The position numbers and the translations under genes were made by a program. This document shows, in pieces, positions 20,728-35,589 of a stretch of DNA of 41,047 bases. Every line of letters begins with the position of its first letter. Position 1 is the stretch's first letter. Source of the DNA: Candidatus Gastranaerophilales bacterium (GTDB lineage Bacteria; Cyanobacteriota; Vampirovibrionia; Gastranaerophilales; Gastranaerophilaceae); assembly GCA_944324365.1 (NCBI GenBank), contig CALUWA010000019.1, forward strand, positions 1 through 41,047, read 5' to 3'. Below the pieces are notes generated by a model. The model was not told the DNA's origin. It searched no databases and saw nothing but the letters and a program-made list of their open reading frames with translations.

Positions 20728-20758
20728 AAGCCCTGTAATACTATTTATTACAAGGCTT
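20728..20758 (-). terminator. Terminator of the secreted-protein gene
   Basis: A 13-bp stem with one mismatch (20746-20758 with 20728-20740) followed on the minus strand by TTTTT. It overlaps the last codons of the gene it ends. Confidence 0.85.
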
Positions 20759-21166
20759 TGTCGGTTCTGATTTAATTACGGCCGGCCGCAAATACTCCGG
20801 CTTAAGCGTAAATGTCCGCATATTAACCCCTTTTTTATAAGCAGCTTTCCGCAAGCGCTTAAGATATTTTAAATCTTTTTCGCCATTTTCCATAATAAGA
20901 ACACAGGCGGGCTGTTTACCTGTCATTTTGCTATAGTACATTGCTTGGCCGATGCATTCCGCCCATTTGTTCGCAAAATCAAATTCAACAGCCAAATCCT
21001 TTGTGAGGCAGTCCACACGGGTTTTATCGTTAAGCCGATACTCAAGCTGGCCATAATGCGCGTCACACCATTTGGCCTGATATTCGGATTCCGGGTATAA
21101 CCTTTTCGCCCACCCGGGCTGGATGGTTATAGATAATATTAAAATGCACAAAAAGATAAGTTTCAT
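20741..21166 (-). CDS. Secreted protein with PD-(D/E)XK-like pattern
   Basis: A 141-aa protein with a clear signal peptide (residues 1-20, Lys then hydrophobic, cleavage after GWA). The mature part contains TRVDCLTKDLAVEFDFANKW (about 48-67), IGQAMYYSKMTGKQPACVLI and KDLKYLKRLR. The D...E-x-D/K order, GQ and Y resemble the core of a restriction-endonuclease fold, and I remember similar secreted small proteins in other bacteria. The activity is unknown. Four Cys residues could form disulphides. It is its own transcription unit with promoter and terminator, probably leaderless, between late and lysogeny regions. Confidence 0.75.
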   Translation of the reverse strand: MKLIFLCILILSITIQPGWAKRLYPESEYQAKWCDAHYGQLEYRLNDKTRVDCLTKDLAVEFDFANKWAECIGQAMYYSKMTGKQPACVLIMENGEKDLKYLKRLRKAAYKKGVNMRTFTLKPEYLRPAVIKSEPTKPCNK

Positions 21167-21256: not shown

Positions 21257-22327
21257 ATGAGAGATAAAAATACCATAAAAGAGATCCAAAAAATTTTCAA
21301 AGAACACAATAATGAAAAAAAGTTGATAAGTTTTGAATTGTGTAGAAACGTTATATTACAGGTTATCCCTACGGTATTAACTGTTATTATTACAATAATG
21401 ACAGCAAACATTGCTAGTACTTCACTAAAAAATCCTTTATTGATTGTATGTGGTTTATTAATTGTTTTTTCTTTTTTTAATATTTGGAACGAGCGTGTAA
21501 AAAATGGATTTGTTGAAGAATTATTCCAATTTAAACAAAAAGAAATAATTTATAATGAGCAAAAAAATGAATATGCAAATGTTTTAATCGAATTATACAA
21601 AAATACCATTTGGTCAGGGTATTCACTTCGTATATTTGCAACTATCATGAATTATATTTCTAATATGAAGAATAAAAATAGAGAACAGAATTTCTCTGAA
21701 TTCATCAATGAAAGCATTATTAAATGTATATATGAAGTTATGTCTTATATGTCAGAAGTAGGGGAGCTAGTTTCTGTTGCACTTTATGTGTATGATGATG
21801 CGAATAATATTTTAATTGATTACAAAAGTAAAAAATCAAAAAGCATGCGCAGAAAAGAAAAAGGAAGAATTTGGCCAGTTAAATCAGAATCGCACATTGC
21901 TCACACATATAGGAGTGGAAAATATAGAGTTTATTATGACTTGCAGGATATGGAGCCAGGTGTAGAAGAAGAATTATCACGAGAGTATGATAGCGATTAT
22001 TATCGCTCTAGTGTTACATATCCTATAAAATTTTCAAACTCTCCTAATGTCAGAGCTGTTTTTTGTGTTACTAGTAGTCTTGTGGGCGCTTTCAGTTTAA
22101 ATAAAAAAGACAAAGAGGATGAAAAAAAGATTCATATGGATAGATTATACACAATTCGCCAAAATTATATTTTTAGTATTTGTATATTAATTGAGTACTT
22201 ACTCAATACAGTCTATCCAGCTACAAACAAAGAGCTTATAGAAACTGCTAGAGAACAGTATACACCTGAAGAATTGCAAAAATTTACAGCTGATTCTTTG
22301 CAGGTTGATAAACACGAAGTTCTTTAA
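21257..22327 (+). CDS. Two-TM protein with GAF-like sensor domain
   Basis: A 356-aa protein. TM1 is about 31-51 and TM2 about 59-76. A basic or amphipathic stretch follows, then a cytoplasmic domain (about 150-330). This has the outline of a GAF domain: VSVALYVYDDANNILIDYKS, GRIWPVKSESHIAHTY, YRSSVTYPIKF and AVFCVTSSLVGAF. GAF folds bind nucleotides or other small ligands. The gene has its own promoter within the accessory block, so it is probably expressed in lysogens. A membrane effector gated by a ligand, as in abortive-infection systems, is an attractive inference, but no partner nucleotide cyclase is present in the window. Confidence 0.75.
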   Translation: MRDKNTIKEIQKIFKEHNNEKKLISFELCRNVILQVIPTVLTVIITIMTANIASTSLKNPLLIVCGLLIVFSFFNIWNERVKNGFVEELFQFKQKEIIYNEQKNEYANVLIELYKNTIWSGYSLRIFATIMNYISNMKNKNREQNFSEFINESIIKCIYEVMSYMSEVGELVSVALYVYDDANNILIDYKSKKSKSMRRKEKGRIWPVKSESHIAHTYRSGKYRVYYDLQDMEPGVEEELSREYDSDYYRSSVTYPIKFSNSPNVRAVFCVTSSLVGAFSLNKKDKEDEKKIHMDRLYTIRQNYIFSICILIEYLLNTVYPATNKELIETAREQYTPEELQKFTADSLQVDKHEVL

Positions 22328-22672: not shown

Positions 22673-23821
22673 TTACAACTTGATATATCTTGCTAATTTA
22701 TTTTTGACAGATTTCACTGTTAAGTCTTCTGTGTAATTAAAATAAATTAGGGTTAATCCATTCGCTTGACAAAGCTTAGCTTTTAAAAGATCTCTTTCTT
22801 GGCATTTTAACATTGCTTCTTCTCCTCCAAAATATTCAATGGGTCTAAAATGCTGCTCTCCTTGATATTCAATACCAACATTATAATCTTTTATAAATAT
22901 ATCTATACGCTGTTTATTTAGCCATTTTGGCGAGTATTCTCGTATAACATTGGAATTAGGAAAAATTTCACGACAGATTTTATACAATACTGTTTCATTA
23001 ACCCATTTTTCACCAATTAAAGGATATCCTACTTTTTTTCTAATATAGTTTTCGGCATTTCTTCTTATTTGTGAATAATTTAGATTGACATTTGGCGTAT
23101 TTTTTAGATTCAAATCAATATATTCTCTTATTGCTTCAATATATGGATCATATCTATACGCAAATTTAGAACATTCCGCAAATATATAGTTTTCATCTGG
23201 GACTTTTCCAGTACAAAGATGACAAATTTTTGCTTTATAGTGCGCGCCCATATAAAAATCGTTAGCATGAGTATAATTTTGAGCTATTTTTTCATAATAT
23301 TTACGTTGACACTCGCATACGTATAACTTTCCACAATTTTTGCATATAAAAATTAAGGGTAACGTTCTACCTGATATGATATATTCTTTTAGGTCAATAC
23401 ATTTACAAGTCTCCAACCCAGAAAACCTTTGAAAAAATAAAGGCGAGAAATTAAGTTCATTTATTTGTACATAAACACCATTTTCTTTTTTGGGTGCAAT
23501 AAACACTCCATTTCTAATTGTTGAACGCGGAAAAGGTTTGCCAATCTTGATATCTTTTATTAATACAGGAGTTGGAAAATAAATGTCAAACAATAAGGTG
23601 TTTACAAGTAAACCTTCATTTTGAATTTTTTGAGCTTCTTTATGCTTATAATAAACCTTAAACCCTTTTATTTTGGTTCCAATATAAATTTCTTCCAATC
23701 CCTTCAAAATAGTACTTTTTAATGCTTTTTCAAAAGTTTTGTAAAATGTGTTTTTGGTTTGAAAATTAATAAAGCATTTTTGGTAATAGCTATAGTCAAA
23801 ATTTACAGTTATTGACTCCAT
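22673..23821 (-). CDS. Zinc-finger/Vsr-like predicted endonuclease
   Basis: A 382-aa protein. The middle contains Cys pairs for zinc binding: C160-x2-C163, C169-x-C171, C200-x2-C203. The C-terminal domain (about 295-380) has the PD-(D/E)XK/Vsr pattern: RIDIF (D307), GIEYQGEQH (E318, Q320, E322, H324), FGGEE, ERDLLKAKLC (D344, K347). Such nucleases occur in phage-defence and mobile-element contexts. It lies 39 nt behind the repressor gene on the same strand, so it should be expressed from the repressor transcript in the lysogen. DNA cleavage of incoming phage is an inference. Confidence 0.8.
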   Translation of the reverse strand: MESITVNFDYSYYQKCFINFQTKNTFYKTFEKALKSTILKGLEEIYIGTKIKGFKVYYKHKEAQKIQNEGLLVNTLLFDIYFPTPVLIKDIKIGKPFPRSTIRNGVFIAPKKENGVYVQINELNFSPLFFQRFSGLETCKCIDLKEYIISGRTLPLIFICKNCGKLYVCECQRKYYEKIAQNYTHANDFYMGAHYKAKICHLCTGKVPDENYIFAECSKFAYRYDPYIEAIREYIDLNLKNTPNVNLNYSQIRRNAENYIRKKVGYPLIGEKWVNETVLYKICREIFPNSNVIREYSPKWLNKQRIDIFIKDYNVGIEYQGEQHFRPIEYFGGEEAMLKCQERDLLKAKLCQANGLTLIYFNYTEDLTVKSVKNKLARYIKL

Positions 23822-23860
23822 GCTTTTATCTCACTTCCATTTTAAATCATATAATACGAA

Positions 23861-24484
23861 TTACAATCCCCTGGATAAGTTTTTAACAACTCGACCTTTA
23901 ACAACGATTTCAATATTGTCATCAGGCTTAAAAGTTTCAACCGGATACTTTTCATTATCTGATATAACATCTAATTCACCTGACAGACGTTTCCTTAAAC
24001 GCTTTACAAACCAATCATTATTAATTGTTAGCAGAAATATTCCGCCATTTGAAAAATCTGTTCTGCCGGTATCTACAAGAAGCATATCCCCATCTTCAAT
24101 AATTGTTTCCATACTATCTCCAGTAGCTCTAAATGTTTTTAAATTTTGTGGATGAGAAATTTTCATTACAGATTGTAGCATTGCAGTTCCAAGTTTTATT
24201 GGTGTTATATCCGCATCATCTAAAACAACAGTACCTTTGCCGCAAGATGGATTAATATGAATATGATCGACAATTACACAATCATCAGTATTATTATCGT
24301 TGACTTTTGTAAAGTCAACATCAAAAAATTTCTCAATTTTTTGTATTTGAATATCTGTGAGTTCCTTTGATTTTATTTGTCCTACGTACTGCTTACTAAA
24401 TCCTAAGGCTTTTCCTAAAGCTTCATAACTGACTTTTTCGCCTTTAAGTGACATTATTTCTGAAATTGCCTGCTGGACTTGCAT
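23861..24484 (-). CDS. CI/LexA-type repressor (S24 peptidase)
   Basis: A 207-aa phage repressor. The N-terminal HTH (residues 18-40, SYEALGKALGFSKQYVGQIK) binds operators. A linker with C81-G82 is the likely self-cleavage site (UmuD also cleaves at Cys-Gly). The S24 domain has S124 in GDSM and K161 in FVKRL, 37 residues apart, exactly as S119 and K156 in LexA. It is therefore expected to self-cleave on RecA activation and release the early promoter. SD AAGGAG precedes ATG 24484. It lies at the genetic switch opposite the early promoter. Confidence 0.93.
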   Translation of the reverse strand: MQVQQAISEIMSLKGEKVSYEALGKALGFSKQYVGQIKSKELTDIQIQKIEKFFDVDFTKVNDNNTDDCVIVDHIHINPSCGKGTVVLDDADITPIKLGTAMLQSVMKISHPQNLKTFRATGDSMETIIEDGDMLLVDTGRTDFSNGGIFLLTINNDWFVKRLRKRLSGELDVISDNEKYPVETFKPDDNIEIVVKGRVVKNLSRGL

Positions 24485-24504
24485 TTGTACTCCTTTTAGT
24501 CTTA

Positions 24505-24539
24505 TTTACTTTTGGAAGGTTTTACTTGACAAAAGTAAA
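24505..24539. promoter_or_regulatory. Repressor operator sites
   Basis: An inverted repeat TTTACTT-N5-AAGTAAA (24521-24539) covers the -35 of the early promoter. A further half-site TTTACTT lies at 24505-24511. The 11-bp arms ATTTACTTTTG and CAAAAGTAAAT also face each other across the region. Confidence 0.7.
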
Positions 24540-24554
24540 TACGTTTGTTATAAT
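24526..24554 (+). promoter_or_regulatory. Early (PR-like) promoter
   Basis: A perfect consensus: TTGACA (24526-24531), 17-nt spacer, TATAAT (24549-24554). It reads into the long leader and the early genes. The operator overlaps its -35. Confidence 0.9.
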
Positions 24555-34148: not shown

Positions 34149-34355
34149 ATGAGGAACAATGTTATTAATTTTAAAAAGAGTAAGATTGATTTTCCAAAAG
34201 ATTTGATTAATTTTAAAGACTTTGCTTTAAAGTATGATATGAAAGTTGGTTATCTTTATAAACTTTGCAGCAAAGGTCAAATCAGACGTTATAAACGCGG
34301 TGTTTGGAAGATTTCAGAAAGTGAAGTTTTACAGGTATTACAGAGGGTAGTATAA
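34149..34355 (+). CDS. Excisionase-like protein
   Basis: A 68-aa protein. ATG 34149 has AGGAGC upstream; a longer reading begins without SD. Residues 20-62 match the excisionase/MerR-like winged HTH (NFKDFALKYDMKVGYLYKLC, then KGQIRRYKRGVWKIS). Its stop overlaps the integrase start by one base. It is expected to direct integrase towards excision. Confidence 0.8.
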   Translation: MRNNVINFKKSKIDFPKDLINFKDFALKYDMKVGYLYKLCSKGQIRRYKRGVWKISESEVLQVLQRVV

Positions 34356-35512
34356 TGGCAGGAATAAGTAAAAAAAGAATAAAAACTAAAAAAGGTATAA
34401 TAACTAAATATACAATAACTTACAGAGATATTTTCGGAAAACAGCATACGTCAGGACTTTATGAAACAATAAAAGAAGCCAAAAAACATCTGACAGATTT
34501 TGAAAATATTAATCCGGAAAAACAGAATATAACTTACGGAGAAATTTTTAAATATTATCTTGAAAAAATTCAGAGAAAATACGCGGACAACACGATAAAA
34601 AATTATACACGATATTATAAAGCATATTTCCAAAAATTCGATAATATTAAATATGATAAAATCGATTCTATAAGCTGGCAATCATTTTTTGACGATATAT
34701 CTAATAATAACAGTCCATATATAGCGCAAATATGTTTAAAAATGGCGAAAGCTGCAGTAAATTACAGCATAAAGCATGGAGTGATTGAATATAATGTATT
34801 CAACAAAATAGAAAAGGTAGAGTTGCCAAAAGCTGATATAAATCATTTGACTATAGAGGAAATAAAAAAACTCTTAAAGGAATGTGAACATTCATATCCA
34901 GAGTATTACGCTTTACTTTATACTTTTATAGGTACTGGAGCGCGAGAAGGGGAAATTTTTGCATTGACGAAAGAGGACTTTAATTATGAAGAAAAAAGTT
35001 TATCAATAAATAAGCAGTTTACAAATAATAAATTACAAGAAAAAACAAAAACCTTGACTTCAAATAGAAAAATTTATATATTTGACGAGTTGGCCGAAAT
35101 ACTACAAAAGCATATACAAACTCTTGATGCGGATAATAAAATATTATTTCCGAATCGAGCAGGTAATTACTTAAATTCTAATAACATGAGGACGCGCTTT
35201 TGGAAACCTTTACTTAAACTATGTAATATCAATAAGAGAGTTCGGTTGCATGACTTACGAGGTTCTTATATAGATATGGTGTTATCAAGCGGTTTAAGCG
35301 TAAAATTTGCGCAACATCAGGCTGGCCACTCAAGAAGTGAAACGACATTAGATGTTTATGCCCGCAATAACAAAGATATGATAGATATTGCTACAGAAAA
35401 AATAGGGAATATTTTTGCAAAAAAATGTGAGCAAAATGTGAGCAAAAATAAAAACCTACCAAATAAAAAAATAATCCAGTTTCCTAAAAGGCTTACTGGA
35501 CTTATGTTATAA
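34355..35512 (+). CDS. int: Tyrosine integrase
   Basis: A 385-aa site-specific recombinase. The N-terminal arm-type domain (about 1-55) precedes a core-binding SAM-like domain (about 58-150) and the catalytic domain. Catalytic residues visible are R197 (GTGAREGE), K232, H299-x2-R302 (LHDLRG), H325 (AGHS) and Y335 (DVYAR). It ends 1 nt before the tRNA-Val gene on the opposite strand, so the phage is integrated at the tRNA 3' end. It is co-transcribed with the excisionase. Confidence 0.95.
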   Translation: MAGISKKRIKTKKGIITKYTITYRDIFGKQHTSGLYETIKEAKKHLTDFENINPEKQNITYGEIFKYYLEKIQRKYADNTIKNYTRYYKAYFQKFDNIKYDKIDSISWQSFFDDISNNNSPYIAQICLKMAKAAVNYSIKHGVIEYNVFNKIEKVELPKADINHLTIEEIKKLLKECEHSYPEYYALLYTFIGTGAREGEIFALTKEDFNYEEKSLSINKQFTNNKLQEKTKTLTSNRKIYIFDELAEILQKHIQTLDADNKILFPNRAGNYLNSNNMRTRFWKPLLKLCNINKRVRLHDLRGSYIDMVLSSGLSVKFAQHQAGHSRSETTLDVYARNNKDMIDIATEKIGNIFAKKCEQNVSKNKNLPNKKIIQFPKRLTGLML

Positions 35513-35513
35513 A

Positions 35514-35560
35514 TGGTGGGCGTTAGAAGACTCGAACTTCTGACCCTCTCCTTGTAAGGG
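35514..35560. other. Candidate attachment site (3' part of tRNA-Val)
   Basis: The integrase stop lies at 35512 and the tRNA CCA end at 35514. The att core should be a piece of the tRNA 3' half, with the second copy at the other prophage end outside this window. Exact limits cannot be seen. Confidence 0.45.
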
Positions 35561-35589
35561 AGACGCTCTACCAACTGAGCTAAACGCCC
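35514..35589 (-). tRNA. tRNA-Val (anticodon UAC)
   Basis: A complete 76-nt cloverleaf on the minus strand including encoded CCA. The acceptor stem is GGGCGTT with AACGCCC. D-arm GCTCAGTTGGTAGAGC, anticodon stem TCTCC/GGAGA with loop CTTACAA (anticodon UAC), T-arm with loop TTCGAGT. The prophage abuts its 3' end. Confidence 0.97.

Follow-up and report, generated by a model that had tools for sequence, protein, structure and literature searches.

Accessory genes that lie directly behind the lysogeny repressor and on its strand are known from phage lambda (cI-rexA-rexB) and Gordonia phage CarolAnn (gp43/gp44), where they share the repressor's transcript and keep other phages out (PMC6426606). 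Each of these systems, RexAB and gp43-44, comprises a DUF4747 protein and a membrane protein, with no nuclease. P2-like and P4-like phages carry hotspots of interchangeable defence cargo, i.e., fixed places in related phages with exchangeable content, which differ in location from the place behind the repressor and for which defence is reported (PMC9122126). Among nucleases, the closest described proteins are the very-short-patch repair endonuclease Vsr and I-Bth0305I, the type enzyme of the EDxHD homing endonucleases (PMC3943268, citing Taylor et al. 2011). A Vsr-like effector also occurs in CoCoNuTs, in another setting, and the TerB-domain protein SngA of the Shango system is matched by one relative of the nuclease described below.

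The window analysed here, 41,047 nucleotides, is the whole of one contig (C19) of a 2.05-Mb Candidatus Gastranaerophilales genome. A tyrosine integrase gene (34355..35512, + strand) abuts a tRNA-Val gene (35514-35589, - strand), the likely attachment site, and the locus is therefore read as an integrated prophage, whose far end lies outside the contig. Its CI-type S24 (LexA-like) repressor of 207 residues (23861..24484, - strand; Peptidase_S24 in Pfam, E 1.4e-18; transcriptional repressor in PHROG, E 2e-25) is followed on the same strand, after a 39-nt gap (23822..23860), by a gene for a 382-residue nuclease (P0001; 22673..23821), as the preliminary description had stated. The nuclease ORF starts with ATG, its reading frame is whole and it is not a chance ORF; its G+C content, 0.284, is below the 0.361 averaged over the window's genes. 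Within the gap, a purine-rich, ribosome-site-like stretch, GGAAGTGAG, lies 5' of the nuclease ATG, and no terminator-like site was found between the two genes. On the other side of the repressor, a perfect 12-bp inverted repeat (TATTTACTTTTG / CAAAAGTAAATA; 24503..24541), a candidate repressor operator, overlaps a sigma-70-type promoter with a 12/12 match (TTGACA-17-TATAAT; 24526..24554, + strand) that points toward the early genes and away from the repressor. Immunity regions are commonly arranged in this way, with an inverted repeat overlapping the early promoter beside the repressor. Convergent to the nuclease gene, a 356-residue membrane-type protein of no known family (21257..22327, + strand), with a hydrophobic stretch at its N-terminus and a similarly low G+C, may be a further cargo gene of this slot; it had no Pfam match above cut-off and none in PHROG, NCBIfam or plasmids (tblastn). 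A conserved 141-residue prophage gene (20741..21166, - strand) follows, whose homologue in the related L158 prophage lies directly behind the repressor.

The C-terminal part of the nuclease (codons 271-382; 22676..23011, - strand) was assigned by structure comparison. An AlphaFold2 model built on a 25-sequence alignment has a mean pLDDT of 78.9, mostly above 90 from residue 281 on, and its residues 271-382 superpose in VIA-align on Vsr (1cw0; Z 11.1, rmsd 2.4, 106 residues) and on the catalytic domain of I-Bth0305I (3r3p; Z 10.2, 95 residues). Foldseek alone gave nothing at E <= 0.001, with Vsr at E 0.035, and a PDB sequence search with the nuclease gave chance matches only; it was VIA-align that settled the fold. 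As modelled, the domain is a Vsr/EDxHD nuclease fold, with which PHROG and tblastn matches to annotated homing endonucleases agree; the Vsr part of the earlier assignment, "Vsr/PD-(D/E)XK-like", holds, and the classical PD-(D/E)XK part does not. By alignment and residue counts, the domain carries E276, D307, E318, Q323, H324, D344 and K347. All 113 relatives compared have D307, E318, G321, Q323, H324 and D344; K347 is kept in 112 and E276 in 111 of the same set. The preliminary description had picked out D307, E318 and K347, all of them real. With Vsr, the protein has in common the fold of residues 271-382 and, presumably, an Asp and a His at a similar spacing; it differs in an additional 270-residue N-terminal part and in that no Dcm-type methylase lies nearby, Pfam and PHROG identifying no methyltransferase among the six neighbouring ORFs.

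N-terminal to this domain, the protein has four cysteine pairs (C139/C141, C160/C163, C169/C171 and C200/C203), not the three counted before, and only one four-cysteine site among them is conserved. C169, C171, C200 and C203 are present in 25 of 25 full-length sequences, C160 and C163 in nine of the 25, always both or neither, and the C139/C141 pair shows no conservation in this alignment. The resulting region (codons 160-203; 23213..23344, - strand), i.e., an optional CxxC followed by an invariant CxC...CxxC, probably binds zinc at C169/C171/C200/C203, as judged from the conserved cysteine pattern. The preceding variable region (codons 1-159; 23345..23821, - strand) is modelled as two helices and then mostly beta strands (pLDDT about 50-78), and structure comparison found no reliable fold match for it. 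Weak matches of the N-terminal half to neck and collar proteins of phages (Z about 5-6) were set aside.

The nuclease exceeds no cut-off in Pfam or NCBIfam (DUF2726 reaches 16.6 bits of the 24.7 needed), matches no family of PADLOC-DB 2.0.0 up to E 1, and its family is not described in the listed titles and abstracts on DUF2726 or on Vsr-like anti-phage nucleases. The combination of zinc site and Vsr-like domain, which the preliminary description could not name, is not unique to the window but belongs to a widespread family without a name. The four-cysteine site is shared by relatives from Deferribacterota, Pseudomonadota, Myxococcota, Bacteroidota, Bacillota, Chloroflexota, Cyanobacteriota, an archaeon and plasmids; the nearest ones are bacterial (Deferribacteraceae, Halomonas, Acinetobacter and Idiomarina), some of them plasmid-borne. 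Only one of the 25 aligned members has a PADLOC match: L050, a fusion with a TerB_N domain, which the window nuclease lacks, matches SngA. Among 144 related genomes no close homologue was found, and even distant relatives occur patchily, in two besides the nuclease's own genome. Homologues are found in several settings: one (L141) stands alone in a chromosome, L001/L002 adjoin terminase genes rather than repressors, and one relative adjoins a ParDE pair.

In a tree of the nuclease domain (114 rows), 28 phage enzymes, mostly with zinc-ribbon arrays, stand apart from a mostly bacterial group that includes the window nuclease (SH-aLRT 93, from few columns and with a midpoint root). Both kinds coexist in the window's order: those with zinc ribbons adjoin fragments of tape-measure genes or lie between such fragments, and the other forms are chromosomal. 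In two loci of that order (L190 3998-12827 and L191 3-7898), zinc-ribbon EDxHD nucleases lie between two tape-measure-like pieces, as if a homing gene had split the gene.

Related prophages, located via a conserved 135-residue gene and the terminase, show that the position behind the repressor is a variable cargo slot. In G040, a 404-residue protein with the same nuclease domain and an unrelated N-terminus lies 14 nt behind the repressor; in G051, whose repressor is 60% identical to the window's, the place is taken by a 378-residue protein of unknown type and then an opposite-strand SocA/Panacea-type gene; in G151 (repressor 68% identical), small membrane-type proteins and a DUF1796-like gene follow; and in G025 a conserved 131-residue gene lies directly behind the repressor, with no cargo. 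The nuclease is absent from the corresponding place in L158, L155 and L156, whose flanks are too diverged for insertion points to be compared, the cargo-free L158 prophage being strongly diverged (repressor 23%). A common origin of the repressor-linked nucleases of the window and G040 was rejected (AU p = 0.002); the two are not sisters, and an EDxHD-class nuclease has accordingly entered the post-repressor place at least twice, co-location with a repressor being seen once for the exact window nuclease. The coupling to the repressor proposed in the preliminary description is supported by position, strand, the lack of a terminator-like site and the recurrence, in a second prophage, of a repressor with a nuclease of another lineage. 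Farther along the cargo region of the G040 prophage, a pair resembling HicA/HicB was noted by eye (L142 11571-12153). The early regions of three related prophages (L155 3999-5009, L156 6371-7768 and L158 3-731) encode highly repetitive proteins with QIGSSGYSAKIGSSGDS-type and NLTVGGYLDLSGTNISSLPD-type repeats.

The surroundings of relatives were compared with PADLOC, using up to three flanking ORFs per side. Around 20 relatives, 115 neighbour proteins gave 132 models, among them SIR2, type I restriction-modification (R-M), a CBASS cyclase with a 4TM effector, Thoeris ThsB and a type IV restriction endonuclease. Around 22 further relatives, i.e., 16 genome-contig loci, mostly of the window's zinc-site architecture, and six plasmids looked at beforehand, 119 neighbour proteins gave 97 models, including two CBASS cyclases, a 4TM effector, a type II methyltransferase and restriction endonuclease, IetA and QatA. 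The 120 proteins of 20 control windows, taken from other parts of the first set's contigs, gave 35 models; most of these were generic ATPase models, with Mokosh-type (MkoA, MkoC) and RtcR-type matches besides. The neighbours of the relatives are richer in defence genes than the control windows, in small sets counted per model, and because models overlap, the ratio of these counts is no test statistic. Plasmids and variable regions are in general rich in defence genes. The annotation of three plasmid regions agrees with the PADLOC result, listing a BsuBI/PstI R-M system with S-4TM and a nucleotidyltransferase in the first, an ATPase with an S8 peptidase in the second, and a nucleotidyltransferase, ThiF and Mov34 with type I R-M in the third.

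Because the nuclease occupies a variable cargo slot behind the repressor and its relatives have defence-rich neighbourhoods, we favour the reading, with a probability of roughly 0.6, that it is lysogeny-coupled anti-phage cargo of a temperate phage. Its relatives often sit among anti-phage genes, and it is therefore a probable guard against rival phages; these two lines of evidence support a defence role indirectly, and what has been shown for RexAB and gp43-44 is here a prediction from sequence. The fold with its catalytic residues, the TerB_N fusion of L050 that matches SngA and the precedent of lambda and CarolAnn also speak for it. Against it weigh the small neighbourhood sets with their overlapping models, the missing PADLOC family, the catalytic domain shared with phage homing endonucleases, the solitary L141, the terminase neighbours of L001/L002, the single co-location with a repressor and the lack of close homologues among the 144 related genomes. 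The nuclease would be translated from the repressor's transcript, hence during the prophage's silent state, and would protect the lysogen against other phages. Its N-terminal half may recognise an infection-specific DNA, RNA or protein target, while E276, D307, E318 and H324 would bind the metal that serves to cleave phosphodiester bonds, in the manner of Vsr and I-Bth0305I. The cut would fall on the invader, in a restriction-like manner, or, less likely, on host nucleic acid, with an abortive outcome. Upon induction, the repressor would be cleaved and the prophage would leave its silent state; at a guess, nuclease synthesis would then fall, sparing the phage's own lytic DNA.

The main rival, which the preliminary description had not mentioned and which is serious although we consider it unlikely, is a free-standing EDxHD homing endonuclease of the I-Bth0305I kind that cuts a site near the repressor in phages lacking the gene and is copied into the break, with no protection involved. 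Homing has to be considered since the catalytic domain is that of phage homing enzymes: the window nuclease is a multidomain protein with the fold and, as predicted, the Vsr-type metal-dependent active site of I-Bth0305I, among its PHROG matches (residues 160-381) are families labelled HNH, homing and intron-encoded nuclease, and many phage relatives found by tblastn carry homing or intron-encoded endonuclease annotation. The tape-measure placement of L190 and L191 and the missing gene at this position in related prophages also fit such an origin. However, the phage enzymes with zinc-ribbon arrays branch apart from the window nuclease (the node supported at SH-aLRT 93 under a midpoint root), which has one conserved four-cysteine site in place of such an array and nearest relatives that are bacterial and in part on plasmids; Rfam shows neither a group I intron nor any other element in the gene's vicinity, and there is no split gene; and the defence-rich places in which relatives often lie are not expected for homing genes.

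Two further readings leave both homing and defence aside. A lysogenic conversion gene whose role is toxin-like or host-modifying and has nothing to do with defence, or a degenerate, functionless passenger, appears improbable: the low G+C fits recent acquisition and a ParDE pair adjoins one relative, but the active-site and cysteine residues are all intact in a whole frame, and no antitoxin-like partner adjoins the nuclease in the window. Least probable, in our estimate, is a nuclease of phage or host DNA metabolism (repair, recombination or a packaging helper) placed behind the repressor by chance. Vsr, of the same fold, is a repair enzyme and the L001/L002 homologue adjoins terminase genes, yet neither a mismatch-repair nor a methyltransferase partner lies near the window gene, which is absent from related prophages and has the patchy distribution among the 144 genomes given above.

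Beyond lysogeny-coupled defence at this one locus, we tentatively suggest, at somewhat short of even odds, that the nuclease belongs to a wide class of one-gene anti-phage systems without a name, in which a Vsr/EDxHD domain is joined to exchangeable N-terminal sensors (four-cysteine, TerB_N or other types). The class would extend across many phyla and plasmids, and temperate phages would have placed it behind their repressors at least twice, thereby arming the lysogen. If such a class exists, homing enzymes and defence nucleases would have one catalytic domain in common. If the anti-phage reading of the window nuclease is right, it provides a concrete case of one fold serving in homing endonucleases and defence effectors, and current defence catalogues have missed a widespread nuclease family. 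The post-repressor position in prophages of Gastranaerophilales, a barely studied gut lineage, would then be a place to seek more defence genes.

Two minor observations concern related loci. On an Arcobacter plasmid (L183 492-2559), a gene annotated as DUF2971-type lies behind a relative of the nuclease, and in a genome of the window's family (L145 7476-9529) another relative is followed by a gene resembling this Arcobacter neighbour; a nuclease relative with a DUF2971-type gene is possibly a recurring pair. In three genomes of the window's genus (L159 in G009:C17, L160 in G000:C14 and L161 in G008:C8), a portal gene and a terminase with 64% identity to that of the window share one chromosomal location, next to an mnmE-like gene. 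The stretch read showed neither a repressor nor an integrase, and this cluster is perhaps old, domesticated or gene-transfer-agent-like.
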